A stretch of 64,000 nucleotides of DNA from Onthophagus taurus (Eukaryota > Arthropoda > Insecta > Coleoptera > Scarabaeidae): assembly GCF_036711975.1 (NCBI RefSeq), contig NC_091968.1, positions 3,472,001-3,536,000 of the forward strand, written 5' to 3'. The notes beneath the pieces are model-generated. The model was not told the origin of the DNA and ran no database searches. It worked only from the letters and a program-made list of their open reading frames with translations. Each line of letters begins with the position of its first letter. Positions within the stretch are counted from its first letter, which is position 1. Below are positions 9,701-63,132 of this stretch, one piece after another. Made by a program: the position numbers and the translations under genes.

Positions 9701-11605
9701 CGAATTGTATATAAAAAACAATTTCTTTTTCGTATTTTTTAATTGTATTTGGTTTTTAAGGCCTAGTTATAAAATTCGCGTTAAAAATTACAAGAGGTAT
9801 AATAAATTTACTCAGACTGAAGAATATTATACACCTATTTTTAAACGATTAGGATGGTATTTTATTTCAACTACTGTTTGTTTCTTGTTTGTAAGTTTTT
9901 TTTTTTTTGCATTTTTTAATACAACAAAACCTCGATATAACGAACCTGTGGAATAACCCGAGTTGGATTCTATCTATAATAGATAATATTTCGAGGTTTC
10001 ACTGTATCACATTCAAATTTTAAACAATTTATTTAATTTGTAGTTCCTCACTGTAATTATTACGGATGGGTTAATTTGTATCACGGAACATTACGTGGAA
10101 TATTCCATTCACAAATATGAAATATCATGGGCGTTGGATTGGTCGGGCACGATTGTCAAATTTTACAGCGCATTTACAACAATCCTTTTTATGCAGTTAT
10201 ATGCACCAGTAATTTGTTATAACAACATCATATTTATATATTTTTTTAATTTTTATTTGTAGCAATTAGATAGAATATCAGAAAAACTCACCGATAAAGA
10301 GTACCATCGCACTAGGGAAAGATATCTTAATTCGTACCTCTTTAAAAGTTACGTTATGAATTTTGCAAATAGTTACTTAATGTTGATTTATACAGCATAT
10401 TTTAAAGAAATTAATTACACGAATCCTTCAGATTCGGATGTTTATGACGACGTATTTGGTATAGCTGCTGATGTTTGTCCTCCTGGAATGGGTTGTGTTG
10501 CTAGTTTATCAGCAAATGTTACGTTTACTTTTTTGAGAGATTATATCTTAGAACTTATAGTTAATATTTATCGCGTTTTGTAAGATATTTAAAAATTTTT
10601 TTTATTTCGTTTCATTTTCTTTATTTTTGATTAGGAACTTTGTTGGAGCGTATAGAAGGATTAAAAGTGCAAAGAAAGCGAAAGGAGAGTGGAGTAATAT
10701 TCCCCAATGGGAACATGAATATTCTTTAATTCCAGCAAATACACTTTTCCTTGCAGAAAGTTATATGTCAATCGGTTGGTGAAACATTTAAATTAATTAA
10801 CTTAAAATTCACAACGAAATTTGTAGTTTTAGAGTTTGGTTTATTGACATTTTTTATTGCATCGGTTCCACTTCTTCCGATATTAGCAGTAATTAACAAC
10901 CTGATTGAATGTAGACTGACAGCTTATGCACTTGTTAGAAAAACGAGGAGAAATGTTGCGAAGAAAGTTTATGGGATTGCTGGTTGGAGGAGGGTTATGC
11001 TGATAGTCCTAAGACTTTGCTTTTTTATTGGTGTAAAAGACGCTAAGAAATTTAATTTATTTTTCTAAATCTCTTTGTTTAATTAGGGGAGTATAATTGC
11101 TTTTACATCTACATTTGTCGACAGAATGGTGTATTATTTTCAACATGATTATTGTATGAGCGGATTTATTAACCAGTCTATTTCTAGTTAGTGTTTTTAT
11201 AGATTATTAAATATTTTTAAAAATATATTTCATTTCAGTATTCTTAGTTGATGATTACAGCGATAAGATGAAAAACCGATTAAGAGCTGAATATCCAAAC
11301 GTTGAAACTTGTTTTTATACTGGACAAAAAAACAGTTTTAATCATACACAGCCCTACGAAAAATCACATAAATACTACGAACTCCTCGCACTTAGATTAG
11401 TAGTTATTGTTGTTTATATGGTAAAGTAATTCATAGAGCATTAAGAAATAATCAATAATTTCTTTTCCAGCACGTTGTTTATTTTGCCAATAGTATCATT
11501 TCATTTTTTATCCCAAAAGTGCCTACAACAATTAAGGATGCTCTCGCATACGACGATTTTATGAAGAGGACTGGGAAGGCAGCATCAAAACAAGGAAAGG
11601 TTTAA
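3716..11605 (+). CDS. Anoctamin (TMEM16) family protein, paralog 1
   Basis: Predicted multi-pass membrane protein of about 806 residues. Exons: 3716-4089, 4141-4351, 4409-4620, 9391-9548, 9616-9706, 9761-9890, 10044-10208, 10263-10579, 10635-10774, 10827-11032, 11087-11186, 11239-11420, 11471-11605. Exons 1-2 encode the N-terminal anoctamin dimer domain (PEVKPPADFIIVQKK; DGPAEWTTSGPLNDRQ). Exons 3-13 encode the transmembrane core: YWASW and YYGSEVAFHYAWLEYYT before the first helix, cysteine motif CPECTFKQC, IDNNFT and FVELWNRHE around the second helix, CPPGMGC before helix 6, and NNLIECRLTAYAL in helix 8. Ca2+-site positions by comparison with ANO1: helix 6 L and I, helix 7 S and S, helix 8 E627 and T631, so only one acid remains. 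The family includes Ca2+-gated chloride channels and lipid scramblases; the specific activity here is unknown. ATG 3716 was chosen because the upstream reading opens only with TTG. This is the most divergent of the four copies. Confidence 0.93.
4950..5505 (+). mobile_element. LINE fragment, reverse transcriptase N-terminal part (degenerate)
   Basis: Reads VDGKIDSSVVAHVSG, then SSPGSDGIPTSFLKEFA, FPSMWKTAFVIPIFKSGDK and SIPKVFDR. These are the opening motifs of a CR1/Jockey-type non-LTR reverse transcriptase. The frame breaks near 5250, the catalytic YADD region is absent, and the fragment runs out in a tail with AATAAATAAATC. It is a short inactive remnant inside intron 3. The clade assignment is tentative. 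Confidence 0.75.
6031..6192 (-). pseudogene. piggyBac-like transposase C-terminal remnant
   Basis: Nearly identical to 31051-31205, where the minus strand reads SDFRRSVDTGLINKYSN followed by closely spaced cysteines (CENCSAKA, KCTACN), like the cysteine-rich tail of piggyBac transposases. This copy has small indels. It abuts the 190-bp satellite exactly as the second copy does. Confidence 0.55.
6193..8246. repeat. 190-bp satellite array, block 1
   Basis: About 11 tandem monomers marked by CGTATAACCTAAAAGTGTC at about 6388, 6578, 6768, 6958, 7149, 7339, 7513, 7705, 7896 and 8086. Spacing is 190 bp, with one shortened unit. Each monomer also carries AATTCCTGGAAGCCGTATTT and GGGTTGGATTGGAAAAATAT. 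The left border is piggyBac-derived; the right border joins a CTAG palindrome piece. The same monomer forms block 2 in intron 9 of paralog 2. Confidence 0.95.
8247..8545. repeat. CTAG-rich palindrome repeat, decayed units
   Basis: Contains ACTAGCACTATCACTAGAAC and its rough complement, then TTTAGCCGTACGTCTCTTAA. These match the 131-bp palindromic satellite that is abundant at 53240-55830. Only one or two degenerate units are present. Confidence 0.7.
8592..9365. mobile_element. Foldback/MITE element with arms of about 310 bp, TA target
   Basis: Left end CAGTGTGTACAAAAAGTATG and right end CATACTTTTTGTACACCCTG are complementary. Inverted homology continues for about 310 bp on each side around a spacer of about 150 bp. 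TA flanks both ends. No transposase is encoded. The arms fold into a near-perfect hairpin within the pre-mRNA of paralog 1. Confidence 0.9.
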
Positions 11606-11616
11606 TATAATTTAGA

Positions 11617-11622
11617 AATAAA
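11617..11622 (+). terminator. Poly(A) signal of paralog 1
   Basis: AATAAA 12 bp after the TAA stop. It is the only canonical hexamer close to the stop codon. Confidence 0.6.
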
Positions 11623-11790
11623 GTGTTAATTTTTATTAGTAATGTTTCAACAGTGATTGTAATTCATTAAAATTTACTCTCCAAAAATGTATTTTAATTT
11701 TTACTATTTATGGATCATTTTGAACAACCTGATCTAAAATTGCTCAAAACATCTATAAAGTTGCAAAATTGTTCAAACCAGACATTTGAA

Positions 11791-14703
11791 ACCGGCGAGA
11801 CGATAGCAACAAACCGCTCAGCAACAAATTTTTTCCTTTATATTTCCACCTACTTCTAGAGCCCATATCTTCGTTATCTAGAAAGATAGCATCAATTTAC
11901 CTCAGAATTACCAAACTTCACGGCCTTGTGCAGCCGTTGCCAGATAGAAATTCAACAAATCGTTTACATATTCGGAAAGAGCTGACCTTGGACTATCTTA
12001 TTCCGAGTTTTCGTCCATCAATATCTGTCGGCGTCTGTAAAGAAAATGTTCCTGAAAAAGAGCCTACAGTTGGCAACAAACTTTACTTTTGTATTTCCAT
12101 CTATGTACTTTTCGGACGGATATCTTTGTTATTTATAACGCTAGCGGAAAACTAAGCACACGGTTGGAAAGCTTGGTCGTTACTCTATCATAAACCGAGT
12201 TTTCGTCCGCCGATATGGTGATAATGAGAGCAAGAAAAAATAAGAAACGTCGTGCTATCACGAATTTTTGGCGTGGCTAAACCACGCTTGGGTTAATAAC
12301 TCTCTTATATGACGGGGAGGAAACTCTAGAACTATATTCATCCTATGGCAAATTTTCTGCTCTTTTCATCGGTATATAACACATCTCAATCACACGTTTG
12401 CACAATCGTTTTTCAGCCCAGCAACAAACTTTTTCCTTGTATTTCCGTCTACTTCTAGGGCCAATATTTTCGTTATCTAGAAAGATAGCGAAAAACTAAG
12501 CACACGGTTGGAAAGCTTTGTCTTTTCTATATCTTAAACCATGTTTTCATCCGCCGATATATTAATAATAAGAGCAGAAAAAAATAAGAAACGAAACACT
12601 ACATTTAAATCACCTCAAAATTGACCCACTTTAAGGCTTTGTGCAGCCGTTATCAGAGGGAAATTCAACAAATGGTTTACTATTACATATTCGAAAAGAG
12701 CTAACCTTGGCCTGTCTTATTTCGAGTTTTCGTCCGGCAATATCTGCCGGCGTCTGTAAAAGAAACATACCTGAAAGACAACCTACAGGTAGCAGAACGC
12801 AATCACTTCTTATCCTAACTTTCTTATTTGATGAAGGAAAAATTGGGACAAAATTTTACCCGAGAGAGAATCCTAACTTCATTTCATGTTGACAGATAAT
12901 TTTTCATTCACTGATGATACATACACATTTGGATAAGAGAATCTGTCTCGATCTTTTAGGCGCAAAAAGGATTAATTCGGTCTTTGATGGGTTAATGTAT
13001 AGATTGTGACGTTCAAAAATATCAGCTATACTCTGAAGATCAGAGTTAATACGTTCACAAGCAGCTGTCACATCAGACGGCGGAAAGGAGCAGTACAGTT
13101 GAGTGTCATCAGCGTAAAAATGCGATCTACAATATTTTATGAAGGTTTTAAAATGACATGTATACACAGTATACAAAAGAGGCCCAAGAATGGATCCTTG
13201 TGGTACACCCGACGATAAACTCAACGCATCCGAGATACTGTCACCAACAATAACTGACTGTCGACGATTTTTCAAATAACTCCGCAGCAATTCAACGGCC
13301 CCGTCATCCAGTCCAACAAATTGCAAAATAGAACACAGTAGGTCATGGTTGATTGTGTCAAATGCTTTGGAAAAATCTACAAGACACAAAACCGTGGCAT
13401 TTCCCTTGTCTATTTCAGATACCACATCATCTATAATGGAAATCAATGCGGTGGTACAGCTGAAGCCAGGTCTAAATCCAGACTGCATTTCTGGCAAGAT
13501 ATTGTTTTTGTCTATAAAATCACGCAGTTGAAAAGCTAGAACCTTTTCAGTTACCTTCGATAGTACAGGAAGGATGCTTATGGGTCTTAAATGCATAAAA
13601 TCAATAGGGTTTTTAATTTTTGGTAATGGTCTAACCAGAGCAATCTTCCACGAATCTGGAAAGACACTCTCACTTATACAGAAATTTACAATATGAGTCA
13701 AATATAAAAGAATATGAGGACATGATAACTTAATTAAACCAATATTTAATCCATCTATATCCGTAGAATTACTTTTTATTGAAGATATGCTTTTCATAAT
13801 ATCAATATCATTAATTGGAGTAAAAGAAAAAGTTGCATTAATCAACTTATTGCTAGTATAAAACTGAAAAAGCTCATTATCCACTGATGTATTTTGCGTT
13901 ATGGAGTTTACAAAAAAATGGTTTATTTTGTCAGGATGACGGAGAGATCCAGGTATTATGCTGCGCTTAACGTTATTCAACCCAAGTGATTTCAGACCAT
14001 GCCATGCGTTATATTTAGTTTATCAATTTAAAAAACGCGTATGCAAATGCGTAAGCGAAGTGCGTCGCACATCGTTGGAAAGAGCAGAAAATTTCCCATA
14101 AGAGAAAATGAATATAGTTCTAGAGTTTTCTCCCCTTCATATAAGAGAGTTATTGACCCAAGCGTGGTTTAGTCGCGGCAAAAATTCGTGGTTTAGGTAG
14201 TTCATAGTCAGAAAAAAGGACATCGTTAGAAAGAGCAGGAAATTTCCCATAAACTGAATATAGTTGTAGAGTTTTCTCCCTGTCAAATAGGAAAGTTATT
14301 AGTGCAAGAAATATTTGCTTTTTCAGGTGCGTTTCTCTTACAGACGCTGATAGATATTGGCGGACGAAAACTCGGAGTAAGATAGTCCAAGGTCAGCTCT
14401 TTCCGAATAGGTAAACCATTTATTGAATTTCCATCGCGTAACGGCTGCACAAGGCCGTGAAGTTTGGTAATTCTGAGGTAAATTGAATGCAGCGCGACGT
14501 TTCTTATTTTTTCTTGCTCTTATTATCAACATATCGGCGGACGAAAACTGGCGGTTTAAGATAGAGAAAAGACCAAGCTTTCCAACCGTATACATAGTTT
14601 TTCGCTATCTTTCTAGATAACAAAGATATGGGCCCTAGAAGTAGGTTTAAATATAAAGGAAAAAGTTTGTTGCTGAGCGGTTTGTTGCTATCGTCTCGCC
14701 GGT
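11791..14703. mobile_element. Foldback/Mutator-like element with 9-bp target duplication
   Basis: Begins ACCGGCGAGACGATAGCAAC and ends with the exact complement GTTGCTATCGTCTCGCCGGT. It is flanked by a perfect 9-bp direct repeat ACATTTGAA at 11782-11790 and 14704-14712. Inverted homology reaches about 630 bp inward on each side. The left arm is partly duplicated: GTGCAGCCGTT at about 11926 and again near 12637. Long inverted repeats, internal direct repeats and a 9-bp duplication fit Drosophila-type Foldback or Mutator elements. No transposase is visible. The middle (about 12900-13985) is a reverse transcriptase ORF. Confidence 0.88.
12904..13980 (-). CDS. Non-LTR reverse transcriptase ORF inside the foldback element
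   Basis: Uninterrupted 358-codon ORF. Motifs in order: SDIDGLN-like opening (SNSTDIDGLNIGLIKLS), SWKIALVRPLPK, LRPISILPVLSKVTEKV, MQSGFRPGFSCTTAL, LVDFSKAFDTINHDLL, SSGVPQGSILGPLLY and the catalytic FYADDTQLY. These are the fingers and palm of a CR1/Daphne/Crack-type LINE. The endonuclease upstream and the C-terminal half and 3' tail downstream are missing, so it is truncated at both ends. It is the only long TE ORF in the window without a frame break. It may be recent, or captured by the surrounding element. It is not expected to be an autonomous retroelement. Confidence 0.9.
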   Translation of the reverse strand: MNNVKRSIIPGSLRHPDKINHFFVNSITQNTSVDNELFQFYTSNKLINATFSFTPINDIDIMKSISSIKSNSTDIDGLNIGLIKLSCPHILLYLTHIVNFCISESVFPDSWKIALVRPLPKIKNPIDFMHLRPISILPVLSKVTEKVLAFQLRDFIDKNNILPEMQSGFRPGFSCTTALISIIDDVVSEIDKGNATVLCLVDFSKAFDTINHDLLCSILQFVGLDDGAVELLRSYLKNRRQSVIVGDSISDALSLSSGVPQGSILGPLLYTVYTCHFKTFIKYCRSHFYADDTQLYCSFPPSDVTAACERINSDLQSIADIFERHNLYINPSKTELILFAPKRSRQILLSKCVCIISE

Positions 14704-15214
14704 ACATTTGAATGACATCTGGAAAGATATTGGAAGACACAAAATATCTAGAAAATGATTGAGAGATGTCCGCAATGATGTCGAGGGTTGGTACAAATGA
14801 TATTATATATAGTTAACACCTGCCACCACGTCGCAGCAATAGAAGAAAATACTGACACAATTAAAAGATAACCGATTAGTATATAAGTCACGTTTATAAT
14901 CCTTTCTATTAAGTCTTTGTTTTAGGGCCGGTTTATCAATATCTAGTTAAGTCGATTTATCTGTCGGTTAAAATTGTATCTAATAGATAACGTCGACGAA
15001 TCGTTAATCTACCCGTAGCTTAGGGTTATCTTTTAGATAAATATGACATTTGGATACCCACCAGATTGAAGTACTGGTTAAGGGTTTACCTATTAGATAT
15101 TGTCAAAAAGATATGAGCGCAAGTTTGGTTGCTTGGTGAAAGGAAATGACATCAAAACCAAAATATAACATAATTCAAAGGTCAAAGTCAAAAATAAATT
15201 AAGCTATTGTGGTG

Positions 15215-16326: not shown

Positions 16327-16543
16327 GATCGCCATTGGATTTTTTTTATAATTTGTTATATTGTTATAACTTATCTTATAAGTGATATTTGAGTATAGTA
16401 TTTTTTATTTAAATTCAACTATTTATAGACAACGTATTTCTTAATAAACAACAATCCACATTTATACGAATTCTTTAAATTATACGAATATAATTACGAA
16501 TTCAAATAATATCTAAATAAAATTGATTATTATGTTATAAATT

Positions 16544-17256
16544 TTAATTTAGGAGGTTAGGAAAATAATTCGCGAAAAGTTGATTTCTAGCATTTCCTAG
16601 TAATTCACCATCTTCTATATCAAGGTTATCTACCTCGACAGTATTTACATTTATTCCAAGATCATATGGAGGTATTTCTTCCTTTACATTTATTGCTATG
16701 TTATGTAGCACTGCTCTAGCAACAATTACTGTCATTGCAGTTTCTAGTTTCAATCGGAGCTTGAGTGCAAGTACAGGAAATCTTCTCTTCCACATGCCAT
16801 ATTGCCGTTCCACTGGATTTCTAGTTCCTATTAAAGATTCATTATATAGTTCTTTTACTCTATTTCGGGTATTCAGCAAAGGTGTTACCAAATATTTGGT
16901 ATTACGATATCCGCTGTCACCTACTAGCAAAGCATTACCATACTCATTATTTTCAAACCTTTGCTTTAATAATGAATTATCAAAATTTTTAAATCCACCG
17001 AGGACACAGTTTAAACATTCAATGAAAAAAAGCCCTTTCGATTCCGGAATGTCTCTGCACGTGGTCCACCTATAATTATTATCCACTCATTAATATTAAT
17101 TCATATGTTTCGATTAAAAGAGATTGCTTACCTGGCGAAATAATGCTAATATGAGTACAGTCGATACTGCCTATCACCCGTGGAAATCTAGCTTTTCCAT
17201 AAAATTGTTCTTGTGATTTCTCTATTTGGTCACCAGTAGGCATACGTAGTTAGACA
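16544..17256 (-). pseudogene. Harbinger transposase (HARBI1-like DDE nuclease), broken
   Basis: Minus-strand reading from the right: TGDQIEKSQEQFYGKARFP, then RVIGSIDCTHISIISPG (first catalytic Asp region), a possible small intron, and FRNRKGFFSLNV with an in-frame stop. Next comes a deletion of roughly 15 codons where the second Asp (WPGS.HD) should be, then ALLVGDSGYRNTKYLVTPLL and RNPVERQYGMWKRRFPVLAL with the C-terminal DDE_4 signature. The stop and the lost second Asp mean no activity. Family identity is secure from these motifs. Confidence 0.85.
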
Positions 17257-17762: not shown

Positions 17763-20700
17763 ATGACAGCAAATAGTAAAGATTCTTTTTATGCACCAGA
17801 AGTGAAACCCCCCGCAGATTTTATTCTGGTTCAAAAAATTGAGATATCAGATGCCCTAATATTCCAAAATACACAGTATCTAACGAATTTAAAAAAGGCG
17901 GGATTAACTGTTGAAGTTGTTGATGGCGTCAAATTCACCGATTGTATTTTTGTCAAATTAACCGCTTCCGATGAATCTTTTGCACACATAGCAAAAATAC
18001 ACGGATTGTATCCAACGTATCAGCACGACAGAACGATTCCGAAATATTCCCAATGGTTCAGTTTTTTTAAAACTAAGATATCATTAAAACCAAAGCTTCA
18101 AGATCCGATGTTTCGCAGATGCAGGTTTTTGATTTTTAATAATTAATTGAATAAATTTTATTAGAAACTTTTTAGTAATTCAGTTCGAGGACAAGCAACC
18201 ACGACGTTTACAAGCGCTGAAAGAATCGCGTTAATTAGTTGCGTTTTAGAGAGGACGCGATATGGTAGATTACAAAATGAATATGGTTTGGGAAGCTTAT
18301 TGGCCAATAAAAACTTCCACGATGCTTATCCTTTACATGATAGTCCACTAAAATGGAGCGAATCTGGACCTTTAAGCGATAGACAAGTTGATTAGTACAT
18401 TTATTAATTCGAAAATCTAAAATTGCTTCAAAGATTTTAGCTAAATATTGGGCAAGTTGGTTAAAATTTTATCAATACCAACCGATTCATATTATTTATA
18501 AATATTACGGATCGGAAATTGCTTTTTTTTACGCCTGGTTGCAGTTTTATACGATATTGCTACTTGTTCCAACATTTATGGGGTTATTCACAATATGTAT
18601 ATCGTATTTTGAATTAAATATTTCACGGAAATCAGTTCTTAGAGTGTAAGTAATAATATACAGTGATACAATAAAGTCTACATACAGTCCGGAAAATGAT
18701 AATATCTCAGTTCCCGAAATGTAATTCAATGAAATTTTTTAACAAAACATATAAGAAGTCCATATTATTTTCATATTTTACATAAAAACTATATATACAG
18801 TATTTCCCCAGATCGAGTTACAAAGAGGAAAAAAAATTTTGTTACTGATTTTTCAAACTTATCTCAGCATAAATAATGCGTCGGATATGTTCAAACTACT
18901 AAATCGCATGAATTTTATACTCTAACTATAAAAGTTAACTAATTATTCCAATTTTTATGTAAAAATTGGAGTTTTTTCTAAATTGAAAATTGAAATTGAA
19001 GTTCAATTTATAATATGTAATCATTAGGACACGGAACTTTTGTAACAAAACGACACGATTTCCCCCCTCCACTCGTTCTCAGCAGAAAATTTCATACAAA
19101 AGTTGTTCTAAATTAAATTCTAAAACAATTTTTTCAATACAAAATATACATATATATACAGGGTGACATAGAAAAAAGTACATTGCATAGTGCCACACAA
19201 TAGAGGACACTAAAATAAGAAAGAAAGTTCCTATGAACATGGGTCCGCAAGGCCTACGGTTAAAAGATACGGGGTGTTGAATTTTATTTTTTTTGTGGTT
19301 TTTTTTTTGAATATCTTTAGCCAGAGACGCAAAAAATTGATAAAATGTGGTATACAGGGGTTTTTTATCATGCTAAATTCAAATATGATCTTAGTTTTGT
19401 GATTACTGATAGAGAGCGCTACATACATACAGGGTTCCATCTCTATTGAATCGGTCCTAACTTTTTCTTTTTTGCTATACACTGTATGTCATTTTCGACT
19501 GAAAAAATTTGTTATCCATGCATCTGAAAGCCGACAATGCACGTTAATTATTCAAAAAGCGCCAAAGTAACCTTTGCAAAAACAATGATAAATAACAATT
19601 GAATAATGTGTCATAATTTAGTGTCCTCTATTGTGTGGCACTATGCAATGTACTTTTTTCTATGTCACCCTGTATATATAAACATTTTTTTGAGGTTATG
19701 TTCTTAATTATTGATCAAATCAAAAATTTTTATTAACAATATTTGTTTAGAATTACTTCTGGAACAGTGTTCGTTAATAAAATTTTTTGGTAACTTAAAA
19801 TTTTTATTTCCCTCTGAATAGTATGCTATCAAAAGTAATTATCTCAATAATTATTGTTTTTATCAAAAAATGTTTTAAATAAAATTTGTTTCAATTTCGA
19901 TTTTGAATCAATTATCTTAATACAAAAATTTTACATCTCTATTAATTAAGCGTCTAAGTGTAATTATGTATAAAAATTCAAAAATTATTATTTTGAGGTT
20001 ATCTCCTTAATTATTAATTAAATCAAAAAATTTTGTTAACAATATTTGTTAAGAATTGCCTCAGGAACAGTGTTTGTCAAAACAATTTTTTTCTAACTTG
20101 AAATTTTAATTTCCCACTGAACAGTATGCTACAAAAATTAATATTTTTGAGGTTATATCCTTATTGTTGATTTAATCAAAAAATGTTGTTAACAAAATTT
20201 GTTTAGAATTACTTCAGGAACAGTGTTTGTTAATACAATTTTTTTCTAACTTAAAATTTTAATTTCCCTCTGAATAGTATGCTACAAAAATTAATATTTT
20301 TGAGGTTATCTCCTTAATTATTAATTAAATCAAAAAATTTTGTTAACAATATTTGTTAAGAATTGCTTCAGGAACAGTGTTTGTCAAAACAATTTTTTTC
20401 TAACTTAAAATTTTAATTTCCCACTGAACAGTATGCTAGAAAAATTAATATTTTTGAGGTTATATCCTTATTGTTGATTTAATCAAAAAATTTTGTTAAC
20501 AAAATTTGTTTTGTTAACAAAATGTTTGTTATCGCAATAATTATTGTTTTTATCAAAAAATATTTTAAATAAAATTTGTTTCAATTTCGATTTTGAATCA
20601 ATTATCTTAATAAAAAAATTTTACATCTCTATTAATTAAGCATCTAAGTGTAATTATGTATAAAAGTGGAAAAATCATTATTTTGAGGTTATCTCTTTAA

Positions 20701-38060: not shown

Positions 38061-38149
38061 CTTTAATGATTTTAATTGGAATGTTTCATCATCGTAAAGA
38101 AAGTGTTACTTAAGATATAATGTGATAATTTTGGTGTTACCGATAAGGT

Positions 38150-52400: not shown

Positions 52401-53073
52401 TCACGCATCAATTTTAATGCATTCTTTTTAACGTTCCAAATCTGTTTATAAATAAAACGTCGCAATTTGATGATTTGAATCGAAACTCTTCCTGTTTATT
52501 TCATAGTAGTGTATTAAGTTTGATTTAAATCTATTTTTGTAGGCCGGAGTAGTATGCTTTACATCTACGTTGGTTCATCGATCGGTTTATTATTTCAATA
52601 ACGGCGAATCAATGAAGGGATTTATAAATGATACACTGACTGGTGACACATTTCATTTCCTTTTAATACGAATCGTTTATTTTATCGTACCTTTATTGTA
52701 GCATTTTTAGTCGAAGATTTCAGCGGCGAAGTGAAAGAAAATTTAGTAAAACAATTTCCAAACGTATCGGTATGTTACTTTAACGGAGCTAAAAACGATT
52801 TTGACGATGTCACACCATATCAAAAAGGTGACAAATTTTATCACCTTCTTGCAATGAAATTTGTAGCGGCCGTACTTTATATCGTAACATAAAAATAAGT
52901 TATGATGATATGGTATTAACAATTATCATTTTTAGCACGGCGTATATTTTCTTAATAGCATTGTAACTTTTTTTATTCCTAATGTACCATCTGTGGTAAC
53001 TGAAAGCGAAGCGTACGATGATATGCTGGCAAGAACTAAAGAAATGGAAAGGATAACTTCAGGCAAACGTTAA
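40445..53073 (+). CDS. Anoctamin (TMEM16) family protein, paralog 3
   Basis: About 820 residues. Exons: 40445-40836, 40888-41098, 41186-41400, 47508-47665, 47735-47825, 47882-48011, 48080-48244, 48304-48620, 48682-48839, 48903-49108, 52543-52642, 52702-52883, 52936-53073. The N-terminus is about 10 residues longer than in paralogs 2 and 4 (MATTSNPGTTDKASKAG). Motifs: PEVRPPADFILVQKTEISDA, TFTSAERITLISCVLERTK, EYWASWYKFYQLQPIHIIYK, CPTCTDKHCGYTTLSDYC, LFVKLWNRAE, CPPGMGCYLGLFMSISFNIM, NNIAEIRITSRTL. Ca2+-site positions: helix 6 F and G, helix 7 A and D, helix 8 E and T. In helix 2 the usual FLELW is FVKLW, with Glu replaced by Lys. Large introns 3 and 10 hold nested transposons, but the joined reading frame is intact. 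No canonical AATAAA was seen just after the stop. Confidence 0.92.
41837..44253 (-). pseudogene. Tc1/mariner-like (DUF4817-type) transposase, split by a Penelope insertion
   Basis: The 5' part at 43853-44253 starts MDTLSVAEKVEMIFIYEESD, continues RERFPDRNTPSRSTFCTVVN (helix-turn-helix) and, after a large internal deletion, WIGRGGPISWPVRSPDLTPL and YFFLWGVLKDNVYREVP (third catalytic block). The 3' part at 41837-41932 reads NLLRCKESFSRRVNKCIEVG and ends GEIFEHLL, the usual C-terminus of this insect family. The Penelope element lies between. The first catalytic residues fall in the deletion, so the protein is inactive. Confidence 0.85.
41936..43852 (-). mobile_element. Penelope-like element (rearranged)
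   Basis: Minus strand: PKLHKQNMPITSCNNSPTYK and YLISFDVVNLYSNIELN (RT start with FD) at 43581-43853. A block with its own ATG (MSIGEANRCNHFKNRFEMLK) at about 43380-43510 interrupts the RT. Then GMPLSGILADIFLDYFENHH, KWIRYVDDVFCIWEG (YVDD) and NFLYLKISYIENRLNFNIYR at 42982-43353, and SGVYQINCSECNNMYIGQTG with GRKLKNRIMEHKNK (GIY-YIG nuclease) at 42463-42756. The interrupting block looks like the 5' start of a second copy, so this may be a collapsed tandem pair. The 3' end is near 41940. Confidence 0.85.
44606..47160 (-). pseudogene. CR1/Daphne-type LINE, degenerate
   Basis: From the right: endonuclease end SGVLHPEISDHEFIDLA near 46910-46970; linker KPRKPWITDNIKLLQNL near 46690; RT IRPISILPAFSKILEKI, LPECQSGFVPGRSCTTALL and VLLDFTKAFDSI at 45852-46316; after a frameshift CYVHMYADDTQLYYDFPF (YADD) and QEKNLGLIIDNTFHYRQHIS at 45281-45910; C-terminal RYIFGIRKYDHIAYKLKDLG at about 45093-45302. 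The 3' tail is (ATT)n near 44606-44625. The 5' part of the endonuclease is missing. Confidence 0.85.
49880..51452 (-). mobile_element. 5'-truncated Penelope-like element inside RNase H, 5-bp TSD
   Basis: The direct repeat TACTC (+ strand) lies at 49875-49879 and 51453-51457. Deleting the element and one repeat restores the RNase H frame exactly (GARVYCQ). The 5' end starts inside RT (LILADIYVKKFEQ). RT C-terminal part FYTRYIDDILIVYKGN (YIDD), KDNMINFLDLNITKN and GVYQI are present. The GIY-YIG core after GVYQI is deleted. Confidence 0.93.
49940..49990 (-). ncRNA. Hammerhead-like motif of the third Penelope element
   Basis: Minus strand: ATGC, CAGATGA (CTGATGA with one change), stem II GATC to ATC, GAAA, CATATGTA, GCAC. 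It stands at the same 3' position as the two better motifs near 23.1 and 27.7 kb. The U4 change in the core probably weakens or abolishes cleavage. Confidence 0.55.
50529..51815 (-). CDS. Chimeric ORF: R1/LOA RNase H start fused to Penelope RT end
   Basis: A 428-codon open frame created by the insertion. About the first 120 residues come from the LINE (LAMEGLLGLSPLHLHIEKVA to IFTDGSKTPEGVGAR). The rest comes from the Penelope RT palm/thumb and linker (ILADIYVKKFEQ, FYTRYIDDILIVYKGN, YNPRQHNHASFRFMFNRIYN). The frame is open by chance of the junction. It lacks most catalytic parts of RNase H and RT, and no function is proposed. That it has no stop over 1.3 kb suggests a fairly recent insertion. 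Confidence 0.8.
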   Translation of the reverse strand: MSISGTISTTPTLAMEGLLGLSPLHLHIEKVARTTIYRFKQYAQNCSDMSYQWAAEDIISTDTVLLMPSDLAGSLSVINAQYQIVLPEWQSWIESENFLVQADICIFTDGSKTPEGVGARVRLIIDFLKCLILADIYVKKFEQILFSDKYKIFTKDIIFYTRYIDDILIVYKGNTANLIALHNIFNNISNLEFTIEMEKDNMINFLDLNITKNLSDQKLEFNIFRKATFAENVIANNSYNPRQHNHASFRFMFNRIYNIPLNQNDLEVEIKKIITISINNIYSINILQNIYNKVHSSRINNLIYPNIKSNLKLLILPFHLILENKLNHNLKQFNLPPAFVSNNKISNFLINKKAKHKKEKSSGVYQIEHIQEHKYKIQFQNVKLIISLKKSNELNLYEEYNIGLHNNDNILKNDIADFNINRCFHVFL

Positions 53074-53239
53074 AGTATTAACCAAATCAAAAATGAATGA
53101 GAATTTTAATTTTTATACAATTTAATTTATTGTTGTTTTATTAATTGTTTTACTTTTATTTTATTGTACACGATGTATTATATTATATTCGAAATCTTTT
53201 TTGATCTAAATATTTAATCTGTAAGTACGAAAGGTTTCA

Positions 53240-55830
53240 CGGTTGGTGTTAATTAAACTAAAACTAGAACTAACACTAGACCTAGAAATAGAAACATTCG
53301 AGTTTAGCCATGCATCTTCAGACGAAACTCTAAACTTTCTAGTTCTAGGTCTAGTGTTAGTTCTAGTTTTGGTACCCGGGGAATACCCCGAATTCAAGTG
53401 TAAAACTAGAACTAACCCTATACCTAGAACTAGAATCATTCGGGTTCAGCCGTCTTTAGAGACGTGCGGCTAACAAACCCGAATGATTCTAGTTCTAGGT
53501 ATAGTGTTAGTTCTAGTTTTACAGTAGCACTATTATTATGTAGAACTAATACTGTACCTAGAATTAGAATCGTTTGGGTTTAGCCGCACGTCTTTAAAGA
53601 CGGCTGAACCCGAATGATTCTAGCTCTAGATATAGTGTTAGTTCTAATTTTACTCTTGCACTGTTATTATGTAGAACTAGTACTATACTTAGAACTAGAA
53701 TCATTTGGGTTTAGCCGCACGTCTCTAAAGACGGCTAAACCCATATGATTCTAGTTCTAGCTATAGTATTAGTTCTAGTTTTACACTAGCACTATTATTA
53801 TGTAGAACTAATACTATACCTAGATCTAGAATCATTTGGGTTTAGCCGCACGTCTCTAAAGACGGCTGAACCCGAATGATTTTAGTTCTAGCTATAGTGT
53901 TAATTCTAGTTTTACACTAGCACTGTTACTATGTAGAACTAACATTATACCTAGAACTAGAATCATTTGGGTTTAGCCGCACGTCTCTAAAGACGGCTAA
54001 ACCCGAATGATTCTAGTTCTAGGTATAGTGTTAGTTCTAGTTTTATAGTAGCACTGTTATTATGTAGAACTAATACTGTACCTAGAACTAGAATCGTTTG
54101 GGTTTAGCCGCACGTCTCTAAAGACGGCTGAACCCGAATGATTCTAGCTCTAGGTATAGTGTTAGTTCTAATTTTACTCTTGCACTGTTATTATGCAGAA
54201 CTAACACTATACCTAGAACTAGAATCGTTTGAGTTTACCCGCACGTCTCTAAAGACGGCTAAAGCCGAATGATTCTAGTTCTAGGTATAGTGTTAGTTCT
54301 ACATAATAATAGTGCTATTGTAAAACTAGAACTAACACTATACCTAGAACTAGAATCATTCGGGTTTAGCCGTCTTTAGAGACGTGCGGCTAAACTCAAA
54401 CGATTCTAGTTCTAGGTATAGTGTTAGTTCTGCATAATAACAGTGCTACTGTAAAACTAGAACGTTCTAGGTACAGTATTAGTTCTACATAATAATAGTG
54501 CTACTATAAAACTAGAACTAACACTATACCTAGAACTAGAATCATTTGGGTTTAGCCGCACGTCTCCAAAGACGGCTAAACCCGAATGATTCTAGTTCTA
54601 GGTATAGTGTTAGTTCAAGTTTTACTCTTACACTGTTATTATGTAGAACTAACACTATATCTAGAACTAGAATCATTTGGGTTTAGCCGCACGTCTCCAA
54701 AGACGGCTAAACCCGAATGATTCTAGTTCTAGGTATAGTGTTAGTTCTAGTTTTACTCTTACACTATTATTATTATGTAGAACTAACACTATACCTAGAA
54801 CTAGAATCATTTGGGTTTAGCCGCACGTCTCTAAAGACGGCTAAATCCGAATGATTCTAACTCTAGGTATAGTGTTAGTTCTAATTTTACTCTTGCACTG
54901 TTCTTATACAGAACTAACACTATACCTAGAACTAGAATCATTTGGGTTTAGCCGCACGTCTCTAAAGACGGCTAAATCCGAATGATTCTAACTCTAGGTA
55001 TAGTGTTAGTTCTAATTTTACTCTTGCACTGTTCTTATACAGAACTAACACTATACCTAGAACTAGAATCATTTGGGTTTAGCCGCACGTCTCTAAAGAC
55101 GGCTAAAGCCGAATGATTCTAGTTCTAGGTATAATGTTAGTTCTACATAGTAACAGTGCTAGTGTAAAACTAGAACTAACACTATAGCTAGAACTAAAAT
55201 CATTCGGGTTCAGCCGTCTTTAGAGACGTGCGGCTAAACCCAAATGATTCTAGATCTAGGTATAGTATTAGTTCTACATAATAATAGTGCTAGTGTAAAA
55301 CTAGAACTAATACTATAGCTAGAACTAGAATCATATGGGTTTAGCCGTCTTTAGAGACGTGCGGCTAAACCCAAATGATTCTAGTTCTAGGTATAGTACT
55401 AGTTCTACATAATAACAGTGCAAGAGTAAAATTAGAACTAACACTATATCTAGAGCTAGAATCATTCGGGTTCAGCCGTCTTTAAAGACGTGCGGCTAAA
55501 CCCAAACGATTCTAATTCTAGGTACAGTATTAGTTCTACATAATAATGGTGCTACTGTAAAACTAGAACTAACACTATATCTAGAGCTAGAATCATTCGG
55601 GTTCAGCCGTCTTTAGAGACGTGCGGCTAAACCCAAACGATTCTAGTTCTAGGTACGGTATTAGTTCTACATAATAATAGTGCTACTATAAAACTAGAAC
55701 TAACACTATACCTAGAACTAGAAACATTCAACATATTCAAGACGCACGTCTCTAAAAACGGCTAAACCCGAAAGTTTCTAGTTTTAGGTCTAATGTTAGT
55801 TCTAGTGATGGTGCTAGTTCTAGTTTTATT
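53240..55830. repeat. 131-bp CTAG-rich palindromic satellite
   Basis: About 19 units between paralogs 3 and 4. A unit is itself a hairpin: AACTAACACTATACCTAGAA, CTAGAATCATTTGGGTTTAG, CCGCACGTCTCTAAAGACGG, then the complements. Centres at 53581, 53712, 53843, 53974, 54105 and 54236 are 131 bp apart. Near 54300, and again around 54500 and 55150, unit orientation flips. Spacers contain GCACTGTTATTATGTAG or its complement. No coding capacity. Confidence 0.96.
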
Positions 55831-55958
55831 TTAATATTTAATCTATTTGATCTATTTGAAACTTTTAAGGCTATAAAGAATGTCAGTCGATAAAATCAAT
55901 TAAATTGAAATTGACATTAATGTCAATACAAAATATTTAACGAAATACTTAAAAATAA

Positions 55959-58900
55959 ATGGCAAAAATAGAAGATAATGTAAAATATCCCGCCGATGTA
56001 AAAGCACCAGCAGATTTTATCCTGGTCTATAAAAAGAATAAATCGGACGCTACTTTATTTCAAAACTCGGAGTTCTTTAAAAATTTGAAACAAGCAGGTT
56101 TGATCCTTGAACCCGTCGATGGAGTCAAATATACCGATTGTGTTTTTGTGAAAATAACCGCATCCGATGCGTCTTTAGAGCATTTAGCAACTGTTCACGG
56201 TTTATACGCAACGTATCATCGTGATAGATCAATTCCACAGTACTCGAAAATGTTTAGTATTTTTAAGAGTAAGATCTCCTTAAAACCAAAGTTTGATGAT
56301 CCAATGTTTCTAAGATGCAGGTTACTGATTTTAAAACATCGATTTTTAATAAAATAAATATTTCAAATTCTTGTTTTAGCAATTCTGTTCGAGGACAAGA
56401 AAACACGACTTTTACAAGCGCAGAAAGGATCACATTAATTAGTTACGTTTTAGACAGAACGAAATATGGTGGACTGCAGGATGAATATGGTTTAGGGAAT
56501 TTATTAGCTACCAAAAATTTTGACGACGCTTTTCCGTTACATGATGGCCCGGCAAAGTGGAGCGAGACTGGGATATTAAACGACAGACAAGTTAATTTCT
56601 TTTAAATTTTCTTTTTAATTTAAACGAATGTTGAGAAATACTTTTATGTTTTTTTAACAAAAAAGATTTTAGCTAAATACTGGGGAAATTGGATAAGGTT
56701 TTATCAGTTCCAACCGATACATATTATCTATAAATATTATGGATCGGACATCGCCTTCTTTTTTGCTTGGTTGGAATTTTTTTCGAAATTGTTGGTTATT
56801 CCGACTTTTCTTGGATTATTTGCGTTTGGATGGGCTTATTTTGATTTAAATATAGCTGACAGAACTATTAAAAGGGTGTAAGTATGACAATAATAAGTAA
56901 AAACTGTAATTTAACAATTTAACTTTGCACAAGAATTTCTTAGCTCTCTCAGCTTTTTCTATTACACCTACGTTAGATTCTTTCTGCAAACTTTTGTGGA
57001 CGTTTTGTTTATTTCGATTTTTGACATTCTTCTTGCTATACTTTTGCAACGATATCACCTACACGACTTTCTTACTACTGGTATTCTAGAATGATCCCGA
57101 CATAGACAGCTACGTAGCTTACCACTTTAAGAACTTTGTAACATAAAGGATCTTCATTTCTGATTGGAACGAGATTTAAAGTAAGACATAACACTAGATA
57201 CTGGTGACAGAAGGCTAACAAAATAATAAATCTATATTTAGAAGACAACTTATTGCTTGCGGAGGTGGGTAATGTTGATAGAAGATTAAATATTGTTGAC
57301 AGAAGACAAAATACTGCTGGTAGAAGTCTAAACATTGCCAATAACACTAGATGTTGCTATGCACAATGCAATGATCCTTTTGCCATTCCGAAAATGAATA
57401 CAGAGAGCTTCATGAATACTTTAAGTTGAAATCATATGCACCTGAAAACTCTTGATAAATTTTGCACATTACATTTTATGGAGAATTAATGAAACAATTA
57501 AAAGATTTGTTGACAAGGCAAAATACTGCTGGCTAAAGTCTTAATTTTGCCAACATAAGACTAGGTACTGGTGACAGAAGGCTAGATACGGCTAACAAAA
57601 TAATAAATCCATTTTTAGAAGACTACTTATTGCTTCCGGAGGTAGGTAATGTTGATAGAAGATTAAATATTGTTGGTGGAACACAAAATATATTGCCAAT
57701 ATAAGACTAAATATTGGTGACAGAATGCAATTTTCTTCATTATTCCTTTAATTCTTGTTATTCTTCTGCTTTATTTATTGCAGAGCTTTCATTTTTCTTC
57801 AATATGCAGATAGGTGTCCTTTTTTGATAGTTCATGTTGGTGAAAATGTTGGAGAAGTGCGGAGTCTCAATTTATAAAGGCAAAAGTCTTAAAGATAATG
57901 TTTCTTTCAATTCGCGCTGATAATGACTGTGGGATTGAGCGATCTTAAAGAAATCACCATGAATTTGTTCAGATTGATGTTGATTGCTCGGGTAATCGCT
58001 ATTTAACACTTCCATAATGCAGTGATTCTTTTGCCAGTACGAAAATGAATACAGAGAGCTTCATGAATACTTTAAGTTAAAATCATAAGTAGTTGAAAAC
58101 TCGTGATATATTTTGCACATTACATTTTATGGAGCATTAATGAAATTATGCGAAAATTTGTTGACAAGACAAAATACTGCTGGTAGAAGTCTTAATTTTG
58201 CCAACATAAGACTAGGTACTGGTGACAAAAGGCTAGATACGGCTAACAAAATAATAAATCTGTTTTTAGAAGACTACTTATCGCTTGCGGAGGTAGGTAA
58301 TATTGATAGAATATAATTGATTATATAATTGATATTGTTGACAGAAGACAAAATACTGCTGGTAGAAGTCTGAACACTGCCAATATAAGAGTAGATGTTG
58401 CTGACAGAATGCAATTTTCTTCATTGTTCCTTTCATTCTTGTTATTCTTCTGCTTTATCCATTGCTGAGCTTTCATTTTTCTTCAATACGCAGATAGGTG
58501 CCCTTTTTTGATAGTTCATGTTGGTGCTGCCTAGTCTAAATAGCTTTATTGAAGAAGTGCGGAGTCTCAATTTATAAAGGCAAAAGTCTTAAAGATAATG
58601 TTTCTTTCAATTCGCGGTGATAATGACTGTGGGGTTGAGCGATCTTAAAGACATCACCATGAATTTGTTCAGATCGGTTTTGATTGCTCGGATAATCGCT
58701 TTTGAACACTTCCATAATGCAGTGATCCTTTTGCGAGTCCGAAAATGAATACAAAGCACTTCATGAATACTTTAAGTTGAAATCCTATGTAGTTGAAAAC
58801 TCTTGATATATTTTGCACATTACTTTATACATTACATTTTATGGAGAATTAATGAAGTAATTTGAAAATTTGTTGACAAGATAAAATACTGCTGGCTGAA

Positions 58901-61900
58901 GTCTTAATTTTGACAACATAAGACTAGATGCTGATGACAGAAGGCTAGATACGGCTAACAAAATAATAAATCTGTTTTTAGAAGACTACTTATTGCTTGC
59001 GGAGGTAGGTGCTGTTGATAGAAGATTAAATATGTTTGGCAGAAGATAAAATACTGCTGGTAGAAGTCTAAATATTGCCAATATAAGAATAGATAATGAT
59101 GACAGAATGCAATTTTCTTCATTGTTCCTTTCATTCTTGTTATTCTCCCACTTTATTTACAGAGAGCTTCATATTTTATACACAGTGCCGGCGCTAGCAA
59201 ATGAAGCGCCAGGGTGCGGGAACCGGAGTGCCCCCCTCCCAAGCATTTTGGGCGGAATGTGGGGGGGAGCGCCCAAAATGTGGAGAAAAATTTAAAAATA
59301 TATAATCAAAGAAATATAAATAAACTTAAAAAAGACTGGAATAATCATAATCCATACTTCAGCAAAAATTTAAGAATTGTACTTATGAAAAACCAAACTT
59401 AAGGCAATAGTCGGGAATACTCTGGTCAGAAGGTTAATTTTCAAGAAAAAGTCTGTAATTGCAATAGTTACAAACTAGACTTCAGCAAAAAACAGGAATT
59501 ACATTGTTCAAAGTCTACATCAAGTCTGAAATTACTGTTCAGAGAAAACAAAAATTGATTATAAACCAAACATGATTTTTCATGGCAATACTTATGTGTT
59601 CAATAAAAGAATGCGAAGAATATGAACAAGAAACCAATGGACTTGTCTTGTTATTGCACAGGACAGGAAATCACCAATACAGAAACTTTGCCAATGCAGG
59701 ATAACCACAAAAGCAAAGTAGCAGTTGCGGAAATCAGGTACCGAGTGGTACAAAATCCGTATAGATAATAAGAGGGCCCCAAAAAGATCTACTGCTTCTA
59801 AAAAACTAAATACTGCTTTCTGAAGACTAGATACTGCTCTGGAAGATTAAATACTGCTTTCTGAGGACTAGATACTGCCGACAGGTCTAAATACAGCATC
59901 TGGAACACTTAATACTGCTTTCTAAAGACTAAAATTGCTTTGTGGAGACTAAATATTGCTTTCTGAAGACTAAATACTGCTGACAGGTCTAAGTACTGCA
60001 AAAGAAAGATAAGATATTGTCGGAGAAAACATACATAACGTTGGCAGAAGACTAGATACTGCTTCTAGAAGACTAAATACTGCTTTCTGAAGACTAGATA
60101 CTTCCGACCGGTCTAAATACAGCGTCTGGAATACTAAATACTGCCATTTAAGACTAAAATTGCTTTGTGGTGACTAAATACTGCTTTCTGAAGACTAGAT
60201 ACTACTAACAGGTCTAAATACTGCAAAAGAAAGATAAAATATTTTGGAGAAAATATGCATAACTTTGGCAGAAGACTAGATACTGCTTCTAGAAAACTAA
60301 ATACTGCTTTCTGAAGACTAAAATTGCTTTGTAGAGACTAAATATTGCTTTCTGAAGACTAGATACTGCTGACAGGTCTAAGTACTGCAAAAGAAAGATA
60401 AGATATTGTTGGAGAAAACATACATAGCGTTGGCAGAAGACTAGATACTGCTTCTAGAAGACTAAATACTGCTTTCTGAAGACTAGATACTTCCGACAGG
60501 TCTAACTACAGCGTCTGGAACACTAAATAGTGCCTTCTAAAGACTAAAATTGCTTTGTGGTGACTAAATACTGCTTTCTGAAGACTAGATACTGCTAACA
60601 GGTCTAAATACTGCAAAAGAAAGATAAAATATTTTGGAGAAAATATGCATAACTTTGGCAGAAGACTAGATACTGCTTCTAGAAGACTAAATACTGCTTT
60701 CTGAAGACTAAATACTGCCGACAGGTCTAAATACAGCGGCTGGAACACTAAATACTGCTTTCTAAAGACTAAAATTGCTTTGTGGAGACGAAATACTGCT
60801 TTCTGAAGACTTGCTACTGCTGACAGGTCTAAATACTGCAAAAGAAAGATAAGATATTGTTGGAGAAAACATTAAAAAGGCGCCGGCTCCCCCTTTTAGG
60901 CGGCGCCCGGGTGCAGTCTCTGTTTATACATTACTTCACCCATGTTTTATACATAACATTTTATAACGATTTAATTTTATATAAACAATTAATTATATTA
61001 AAACAGAAAAGAAGTTTGTTCTTCGACAGTACAAATTTGTCCACCTTGTACTCATGAGCACTGCGTCTACGCAAATCTGAGTGATTATTGTGGGTTGGCT
61101 ATGACAACTTATTACGTCGATAACAACTACACAGTATTTTTAGCTATTGCAGTAACGATATGGGGTTAGTTATTTGTACCTATATTTCTAGAATGTATAA
61201 TATTGTTTGATTTTGTTTTTGTAGCAACGATTTTCTTGGAACTGTGGAGTCGCCAGGAAATCATCTGGCAATACAAATGGAATTTAAACAAATCTATTCC
61301 ACATATCGATGAAATGTAAAAAAATACGAATTAATTTAATTTATTCTAAATTGTTTATTTTTTAGGGCTAATTATAAAGTACGCGTTCATAACTACTTAA
61401 AATATAATAAACACACTAAAACTGAAACGCATTATACCCCGTTTTATATGAAATCGGAACGAATTCTAATTTCAATTCTTGGGGTTATTGGTGGAGTAAT
61501 TATTAGAAGAAATTTAACTAATTTTCTTTCTAAACGACTTTTTTTAGGTTATAATTGTAATCCTTACAACAGCAACGATTGTAATTTCTGAACATTTTAT
61601 CTCATACTATATTCTTAAATACCGTATAAAAATTGCAGTGGATCATCTGCTTTTGTTGCTTAGATGTTATGGTTACTTTGTAACGATTGTACTTATGCGA
61701 ATTTATAGTCCGGTAACTTGTTGATTTATAAAATTTAATTTCAATTATAATGGTTTCGCTTAGTATTTAGCAAAACTAGCTAAGGTATTGACGGATCAGG
61801 AAATTCATAGAACCAAAACTGAATATCTCAATGCGTATATTTTGAAAAGTTACACATTGGCTTTTTTTAACAGCTATATTATGACTTTTTATAATTGCTT

Positions 61901-63132
61901 TGTGAAAGAAAGCATGTATACCAATCCGGGTGATTACAAAATTTTCCATAAATATTTCGGAATCGGCGCGGTTTTATGTCCACCATCTATGGGGTGTTAT
62001 GGCAGAATATTCTTAATGACCGTTTTTAGTATATTAAAACGTTACATCTTGATGTTCTTTTATAAAAGTTACCTTGTTGAGTAAGTATTAATTCGTTACA
62101 TCGAGATTTTACTGTATTATTATTTTTAAGGCTTCTTATCATGGGTGTTAAACACCTTTATAAAATCATTTATGAAGAAATAACTTTAAACTACGATCGA
62201 GGCCCAGAACTTCCTCAATGGGAAGAGGAATATAGCTTGAAACCGATTAGTTCGATTTTTTTCGCTAACGCATTTACGAAAAGAAGTAAATTAAGCAATC
62301 TTTTTAAAACAAAGGTTTATTTAATTTTCTTTTCAGTACTGGAATATGGGTTATTAACTTTTTACAGCGCAACAGTTCCGGTGCTTCCCGGACTCGTATT
62401 ACTAAACAATATCGTTGAGCTAAGATTAACTGCGATGTCACTTATTAGACATTCGAGAAGGAATGTTCCAAAACGAGTTCTAGGGTTGGGATCGTGGAAT
62501 AATGTTTTACAGTTTGTTACAAGATTGAGTTATCTTATAAGTGTAAATTTCATTTTATTATTTGCTTTGAGACAATTCTAATTCTGATTGTTTAGGGTGC
62601 TTTAATATGTTTTACATCCACATTTGTCCATCGAGCCGTTTATTACTTCAATAATAATTGGTCCATGAAAGGTTTCGTACTTGATACATTAACTGGTGAG
62701 ATAATCAATTTTGACACATCAATTTCAATTTTAATCCTTAACTTATTGCAGCATTTTCAGTTGATGGATACACTGGTGAAATGAAGGAGAAATTACTGCG
62801 TCTGTACCCCAACGTAACTGTGTGTTACTTTTCCGGATTAAAAAATGATTATAACCAACCCAATCCTTATCAAAAATCTGACAAATTTTATCATTTGTTC
62901 GGTATGAAATTTTTTACGCTCGTTATTTACGTGGTAATTTTTTTTATTGAAAGTAGATATTTTAATGACACTAATCATTCATTAGCACATCGTTTATTTG
63001 ATTAATTCCCTCCTGAGTTCTGGTATATCAAAAATGCCATATATTGTTCAGCAATACGAAGCTTACGACACCATGTTATTAAGAACTGAGAATATGGAGA
63101 AAATAACTGGAGGGAAAAGTAAAAAAGTTTAA
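55959..63132 (+). CDS. Anoctamin (TMEM16) family protein, paralog 4
   Basis: About 811 residues. Exons: 55959-56320, 56380-56590, 56666-56877, 61007-61164, 61225-61315, 61366-61495, 61548-61712, 61764-62080, 62131-62285, 62337-62542, 62596-62695, 62752-62933, 62986-63132. Motifs: DVKAPADFILVYKK, RYCR-type exon end replaced by LRCR, TFTSAERITLISYVLDRTK, KYWGNWIRFYQFQPIHIIYK, CPPCTHEHCVYANLSDYC, YYVDNNYTVFLAI, FLELWSRQE, CPPSMGCYGRIFLMTVFSIL, NNIVELRLTAMSL, and C-terminal KMPYIVQQYEAY. Ca2+-site positions: helix 6 F and S, helix 7 A and K, helix 8 E and T. A Lys in helix 7 is the most drastic change among the copies. Exon 8 was placed at the first of two adjacent acceptors (61763), which keeps the 317-bp length found in the other three. 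Only intron 3 (4.1 kb) is large. Confidence 0.93.
57090..59170. repeat. Three copies of a repeat of about 650-710 bp in intron 3 of paralog 4
   Basis: The marker ACATTTTATGGAG occurs at 57471, 58122 and 58834. Each copy also carries GCTTGCGGAGGTAGGTA-like, CAAAATACTGCTGGTAGAAG and GCAATTTTCTTCATT text. The short motif TACTGCTGGTAGAAGTCTAA is related to the tandem units further right. Confidence 0.85.
59183..60922. mobile_element. Non-autonomous hAT-like element with 8-bp TSD and internal tandem repeats
   Basis: Starts CAGTGCCGGCGC and ends GTGCAGTCTCTG. The 8-bp direct repeat TTTATACA stands at 59175-59182 and 60923-60930. The CAG...CTG ends and 8-bp duplication are typical of hAT. Both ends are GC-rich, unlike all around them. 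The interior from about 59790 to 60870 is built of units of about 20 bp (GACTAAATACTGCTTTCTGA), organised in a higher-order repeat of about 390 bp (TTGGCAGAAGACTAGATACT at 60041, 60265, 60430 and 60655). No transposase. Confidence 0.83.

Follow-up and report, generated by a model that had tools for sequence, protein, structure and literature searches.

The 64,000-nucleotide window analyzed here (C3:3472001-3536000, where C3 is contig NC_091968.1 of the scarab beetle Onthophagus taurus) carries on its forward strand four full-length, intact anoctamin (TMEM16) genes whose predicted proteins have lost most of the acidic residues that form the main Ca2+ site of mouse ANO1, and have polar or charged residues at the positions of its gate and hinge. 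Anoctamins are membrane channels and lipid scramblases whose usual opening signal is Ca2+. Because most of the Ca2+-sensing residues are gone and the gate has become charged or polar, these genes probably work without Ca2+. More specifically, we give a probability of about one half to the reading that they encode Ca2+-independent transporters with a re-engineered gate, descended from a lineage that lost Ca2+ gating. Judged from sequence, it is homology rather than activation by Ca2+ that makes the window genes anoctamins.

The four genes, numbered in their order along the window, have 13 exons each: copy 1 at positions 3716-11605 (806 amino acids), copy 2 at 17763-38005 (810 amino acids, with introns of 10.8 and 6.5 kb), copy 3 at 40445-53073 (820 amino acids), and copy 4 at 55959-63132 (811 amino acids). 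The spliced gene models are free of internal stops, all 12 introns of every copy are of the GT-AG type, and the series of intron phases (2,0,2,1,2,0,0,2,1,0,1,0) is common to all four. When spliced alignment was repeated with a second script and a different copy as the query, copies 3 and 4 were recovered with trimmed ends (802 and 800 amino acids) and with the exon 7/8 junction of copy 4 displaced by 7 bases on both sides. All four proteins match the Pfam families PF04547 (Anoctamin; 265 bits for copy 1 at a cut-off of 28) and PF16178 (the N-terminal anoctamin dimerisation domain; 112.7 bits for copy 1 at a cut-off of 22). These were the only families detected in the four proteins at E values up to 0.01, with no match to TMC or OSCA/TMEM63. 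A profile of the four copies matched ANO1 with 345 bits (E 6e-102, profile positions 34-797 of 815) and ANO6 with 332 bits (E 7e-98, positions 10-797 of 815), while ANO10 and the fungal TMEM16s scored far lower (at most 66 bits). The pairwise ratio of nonsynonymous to synonymous divergence (dN/dS, Nei-Gojobori) is 0.25-0.33 at a dS of 0.89-1.62, which, together with the intact models, indicates that the proteins are under purifying constraint. We also considered Axs, an ANO10-like fly gene, as the identity of the window genes, and rejected it on two grounds: ANO1 and ANO6 are matched far better than ANO10, and an ANO10-like gene of the beetle, so assigned by its sequence pattern and by its grouping with the paralog C7, is a separate locus at C6:30429 kb with intact acids.

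To place the four genes within their family, we searched the beetle's own genome (290.8 Mb in 33 contigs) by anoctamin family and then built gene models at the listed places. This gave at least 15 anoctamin genes, and a protein search of the genome with copy 2 revealed no further locus. Eight of the genes form a tandem array of ~120 kb, four of them within the window and the others, genes A (on the minus strand), B, C, and D, upstream of it at C3:3413851-3471337. The remainder are a pair on C10 (C10x and C10y; C10:1281953-1288065 and 1290779-1301326) and the single genes C11, C6a, C6b, C16, and C7. Some models are incomplete: those of C6b and C7 cover the core only, the small exons of C7 and the short exons around transmembrane helix 6 (TM6) of C10y are doubtful, and gene A is without its N-terminal part. 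In a site table of 17 sequences, the five single genes, hereafter the normal paralogs, have acids throughout the five acidic positions of the main Ca2+ site, whereas the ten others (eight in the array, two on C10) have lost some or all of these acids.

The main site of ANO1 comprises N646, N647, E650, E698, E701, N726, E730, and D734 (PMC8640346; published work is cited throughout from excerpts, by PubMed Central number). We use the a-numbering, which is 4 lower than the ac-numbering of an earlier note on this DNA (E734 and D738 there are E730 and D734 here). Of the five acids, one in TM6, two in TM7, and two in TM8, copies 1-4 keep 1, 2, 2, and 1, respectively. The alignment of helices 7 and 8 to conserved anchors is free of gaps. 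TM7 is split by intron 9 in every copy, and in a MAFFT alignment its two acids, E698 and E701, correspond to S595 and S598 in copy 1 (10759-10834), A597 and D600 in copy 2 (30717-37225, a span that includes the 6.5-kb intron), A608 and D611 in copy 3 (48824-48910), and A596 and K599 in copy 4 (62270-62344). Copy 4 thus naturally has the lysine of the E701K mutation, which removes Ca2+ binding in ANO1 (PMC8640346). In TM8, N726 and E730 are retained in all four copies and D734 is replaced by threonine: T631 in copy 1 (10895-10921), T633 in copy 2 (37286-37312), T644 in copy 3 (48971-48997), and T632 in copy 4 (62405-62431).

The alignment of helix 6 is ambiguous, as both HMMER and a six-row MAFFT alignment open a three-residue gap there, and this region is shorter by one residue in ANO6 and the normal paralogs than it is in ANO1. 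In the register of ANO6 and the normal paralogs, E650 corresponds to N548 in copy 1 (TM6 at 10527-10565), N544 in copy 2 (30456-30494), N555 in copy 3 (48568-48606), and K544 in copy 4 (62028-62066), and N646 corresponds to E, L, L, and M, so that copy 1 is acidic at the latter position. When the helix was shifted by -4 to +4 residues, an acid came to lie at E650 in none of copies 1-3, and in copy 4 only at +4. Whichever of the tested registers is chosen, the site is not restored. The earlier note, which covered 10263-62542 (copy 1 exon 8 to copy 4 exon 10) by hand alignment, had described the Ca2+ site as degenerate in all four copies, and that description holds. The ANO1 residues it listed (N650, E654, E702, E705, E734, D738) agree with excerpts of PMC8480199, and MAFFT reproduces both its helix 7 letters (S/S, A/D, A/D, A/K) and its retained glutamate and D-to-T change in helix 8. 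Its helix 6 letters (L/I, F/S, F/G, F/S) are correct in the ungapped ANO1 register (shift 0) but not in that of the normal paralogs, where they become E/N, L/N, L/N, and M/K.

A third Ca2+ site, between TM2 and TM10, consists of E425, K428, D879, and D884 in ANO1. D884 is replaced by K778 in copy 1 (11516-11518), K780 in copy 2 (37910-37912), N791 in copy 3 (52981-52983), and K779 in copy 4 (63031-63033), K428 by N, S, N, and S, and D879 by S, T, T, and S. E425 is retained except in copy 3, where it is K331 (47749-47751). As D879 is something other than aspartate in ANO6 and the normal paralogs as well, the informative positions are D884 and K428, and going by these aligned residues the third site is damaged in the window copies.

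The changes extend from the Ca2+ sites to the gate. The TM4 gate residue I547 (M522 in ANO6) corresponds to Q443 in copy 1 (10194-10196), K439 in copy 2 (30120-30122), K450 in copy 3 (48230-48232), and R439 in copy 4 (61698-61700), and is lysine in genes B, C, and D. In TM6, at the coordinates and in the register given above, the gate residue I637 is T536, N532, N543, and S532, and the hinge glycine G640 is R539, K535, K546, and K535 in copies 1-4, lysine or arginine being found at the hinge in all seven of the array genes B-D and 1-4. Q705, which lies four residues, or one helical turn, from E701, is glutamate in the same seven genes (in the window E602, E604, E615, and E603, with codons at 10832-10834, 37223-37225, 48908-48910, and 62342-62344) and glutamine in all ten other rows, including gene A and the C10 pair. 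The combination of K, R, or Q at 547, K or R at 640, and E at 705 is thus common to genes B-D and 1-4 and is seen in none of the ten other rows. TM6 position 641 is an acid in some of the seven (D, D, E, and E in gene D and copies 1, 2, and 3) and N, N, and R in genes B, C, and copy 4. N726 is retained in all seven and E730 in six. The TM4-TM5 region is free of gaps in the 17-row MAFFT alignment, apart from a two-residue insert before TM4 in ANO6 and C7.

How unusual these substitutions are can be gauged in two ways. Of the 275 columns that are hydrophobic in both ANO1 and ANO6, only 5 bear a charge in three or more window copies, and positions 547 and 640 are among the five. We also searched the core, over its 553 ungapped columns, for positions with a charge class that is uniform in five normal sequences and that is changed and conserved in at least six of the seven array genes. 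Fifteen columns emerged (321, 327, 383, 431, 451, 535, 547, 573, 600, 617, 640, 705, 734, 811, and 884), four of which (547, 640, 734, and 884) are among the 19 ungapped positions in a list of 21 gating positions named from papers (gate and hinge positions from PMC8640346). The corresponding hypergeometric p value of 0.001 is a guide only, as the list, the classes, and the cut-offs were chosen after the table had been seen.

The seven genes belong to a larger group that shares the loss of acids. In a tree of the 17 rows (IQ-TREE, LG+F+G4, 569 core columns, with the Ca2+-site columns included), the ten genes with a deficient site group together as a single clade (support 100/100), sister to the normal paralog C16 (95.7/94), and within it genes B-D and 1-4 are united in a subclade (100/100). 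The branches of the expanded clade are long, yet its unity is backed by an intron at ANO1 position 869, phase 0, which is present in all ten genes and in none of the five normal models, although the C6b model stops short of that point and the end of C7 is doubtful. Five of the 12 introns of copy 2 are shared with C16, and likewise five with C6a. Divergence within the array is considerable, with only 38% identity between gene B and copy 2. Gene A retains E698, E701, E730, D884, and a hydrophobic residue at I547, but its residue at both E650 and D734 is N, and that at N726 is H. Gene B has none of the five main-site acids, and the C10 pair shows a pattern unlike that of the window genes, in which E730 is replaced by K, D734 by E, and N726 by R. 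Position 734 is T in C, D, and copies 1-4, S in B, and N in A. The earlier note had argued from the shared threonine that the change predates the duplications; the T of genes C and D outside the window, the S of B, and the monophyly of the ten deficient genes bear this out. No relatives were found in collections of bacterial, archaeal, and viral contigs, which are uninformative on other insects.

That note had offered three interpretations, namely that the proteins are Ca2+-independent, differently gated, or scaffolds. Its starting point, the loss of the canonical site, stands, but the account was too narrow in that it took in neither the third site nor the TM4/TM6 gate, the TM6 hinge, or Q705E, and the gate residues favour the first two interpretations over the last. 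Ca2+ draws TM6 toward TM7 and TM8 around G640, whereupon the TM4/TM6 interface opens or the pore widens, and a shift toward the open state is the likely effect of the mutations I637A/K and G640A/P (PMC8640346). Lysines at the TM4 gate (I546K and I547K in ANO1, I521K and M522K in ANO6) need no Ca2+ stimulus to give rise to phosphatidylserine exposure and, when the voltage is depolarised, to currents (PMC11534332). The pore of the beetle proteins may no longer wait for Ca2+ to pull TM6 onto TM7 and TM8. Instead, a charge network of K547 in TM4, K/R640 in TM6, and E705 in TM7 could set the gate. Ions, and perhaps lipids, would then need no Ca2+ to pass: the path might simply leak, or it might open once voltage, membrane tension, pH, or a partner breaks the network. 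A more far-reaching version, to which we would give somewhat less than even odds, is that a subfamily of at least seven genes has exchanged Ca2+ gating for a gate lined with charges (Lys/Arg of TM4 and TM6 in presumed contact with the Glu of TM7), as a natural counterpart of the laboratory mutants, and was expanded in tandem for a specialised task.

Several observations weigh against Ca2+-independent transport through a re-engineered gate. The HMMER posterior at I547 is only ~0.5 against ANO1 (~0.9 against ANO6), and the residue of copy 1 at this position, glutamine, is uncharged. Most polar gate mutants of ANO6 become inactive once the Ca2+ site is broken, with only F518K and Y563K remaining active, and constitutive mutants are toxic to cells, which speaks against a plain leak (both PMC6478717). 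In the literature passages, no test was found of I547K or M522K combined with a broken Ca2+ site. Excerpts on the related OSCA/TMEM63 proteins describe TMEM63A A476K, at the matching position, as being without obvious phosphatidylserine exposure, and OSCA1.2 as having a natural TM4 lysine, K435, without spontaneous exposure. Moreover, the core of the window genes is only 23-29% identical to ANO1 and ANO6, and much else differs too. Among acids identical in ANO1 and ANO6, the window copies retain 9 of 28 in the seven Ca2+-site columns (main and third sites) and 33 of 100 in the 25 other columns, so that no excess loss is seen. A second control was restricted to the 15 columns with an acid in ANO1, ANO6, C11, C6a, and C16, and counted the third-site positions 425 and 884 among the ten others. 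Here the seven array genes retain 8 of 35 Ca2+-site acids vs. 44 of 70 others (Fisher p 0.00016, but the cells are not independent and the p value by column is 0.06), and the window copies alone retain 6 of 20 vs. 24 of 40, which is borderline (p 0.054). The distant normal paralogs C6b and C7 retain all 10 of their Ca2+-site acids vs. 9 of 13 others. As the two controls partly disagree, we conclude that the site is at least without the special constraint that it has elsewhere.

The first control would suit a non-conducting scaffold or tether, in which the fold has been kept for dimerisation or membrane contact while the Ca2+ site and the gate, no longer needed for transport, have decayed. Yeast Ist2 offers a precedent, being a tether between the endoplasmic reticulum and the plasma membrane (PMC3814000) with three strongly altered Ca2+ motifs (PMC5812556). 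However, a gate that serves no purpose should drift, and the conservation of the new residues at 547, 640, and 705 over seven array genes, despite the low identity between gene B and copy 2, therefore counts against a scaffold, which we regard as unlikely. The same E705 lends itself to another reading, in which it forms a relocated cation site with the retained E730 and N726 and, in some copies, the TM6 acid at 641, so that gating by Ca2+, or by some other cation, would persist. The exclusive occurrence of E705 in the seven genes fits this idea, as does the retention of E730 and N726 in nearly all of them, and alternative ligands one or two turns away have been sought in other families of the superfamily (PMC5868767). 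Such a site would put acids at the same spatial positions as the canonical ones, the outcome that the earlier note had named as contradicting its claim. It could draw on no more than three acids at the shifted level, though, with no acid at 641 in genes B, C, and copy 4 and a basic residue adjoining at 640, and the partner of E705 may be K640 or K547 instead. We consider a relocated site more doubtful still than a scaffold.

Finally, misalignment, wrong splice sites, or pseudogenes could mimic a loss of acids, given that helix 6 can be aligned in more than one register and that the gene models derive from genomic DNA alone. This is very improbable in view of the GT-AG borders and common phases at every intron, the absence of internal stops, the nearly exact recovery of copies 3 and 4 by the second aligner (save trimmed ends and one junction), the low dN/dS, and the gap-free helices 7 and 8; the same pipeline, moreover, shows the acids in all five normal paralogs. 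Ca2+-independent transport with a re-engineered gate thus remains the reading that we prefer, at the even odds stated at the outset.

Among proteins of known structure, mouse ANO1 (TMEM16A) and ANO6 (TMEM16F) are the best matches to the window copies, which resemble them in the dimerisation and anoctamin domains, in the NN of TM8, and in E730. They differ from both in the loss of the main and third Ca2+ sites, in the polar or charged TM4/TM6 gate, in the replaced hinge glycine, and in Q705E. C16, although sister to the expanded clade, has its main-site acids intact. With yeast Ist2, a TMEM16 homolog, the window copies share altered Ca2+ motifs, but Ist2 is fungal and is described as a tether, and the comparison is by description only. 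The TM4 lysine of copies 2 and 3 and of genes B, C, and D (arginine in copy 4) is that of the laboratory mutants ANO1 I547K and ANO6 M522K and of the deafness mutation M412K in TMC1 (PMC11534332). These are single changes in otherwise unaltered gates, however, and the ANO1 and ANO6 mutants have an intact Ca2+ site. The TMC and OSCA/TMEM63 families are relatives of TMEM16, and TMC1 is without the TMEM16 Ca2+ ligands (PMC6067890), but the window proteins differ from both families in matching only the two anoctamin families of Pfam. Among the literature matches listed, in excerpts and with most subscription journals outside the coverage, there was no report of Ca2+-site loss in an insect anoctamin expansion.

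Seven satellite-like tandem arrays lie between or inside the genes of the window (1-3176, 6155-8249, 19687-20511, 31178-33331, 38624-40013, 53407-55804, and 59790-60872), and intron 3 of copy 1 shares a similar unit of 190 bases with intron 9 of copy 2. Remains of transposable elements, all on the minus strand, sit between the genes and in intron 3 of copies 2 and 3 (12907-14019, 16547-17086, 23428-24012, 28314-29186, 43780-44256, and 45855-46355). Their domains include the reverse transcriptases RVT_1 and RVT_2, a DDE_Tnp_4 transposase, a DUF4817 helix-turn-helix, and a GIY-YIG domain, the last of which we take to mark an element of the Penelope type. The 3.4-kb intron 10 of copy 3 contains an open frame of 444 amino acids on the minus strand (50532-51863) that resembles reverse transcriptases weakly (19.4 bits at a cut-off of 29.6). 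PF02949 (7tm_6), presumably the insect odorant receptor family, has 134 matches in the beetle genome, as befits an insect, and none in 14 control genomes; some of these matches lie ~65-80 kb downstream of the window at C3:3600411-3614693.

Work on TMEM16 gating rests largely on laboratory mutants. If the beetle genes conduct or scramble without Ca2+, they would constitute a natural experiment on the changes that allow the fold to function once its sensor is lost, and the comparison of gene A, in which the Ca2+ site is partly kept and the gate is hydrophobic, with genes B-D and 1-4 suggests an order of steps. If they are non-conducting, they would show a channel fold put to a different purpose. 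In both cases, the label 'anoctamin' on an annotated insect gene should not be taken to mean 'calcium-activated'.

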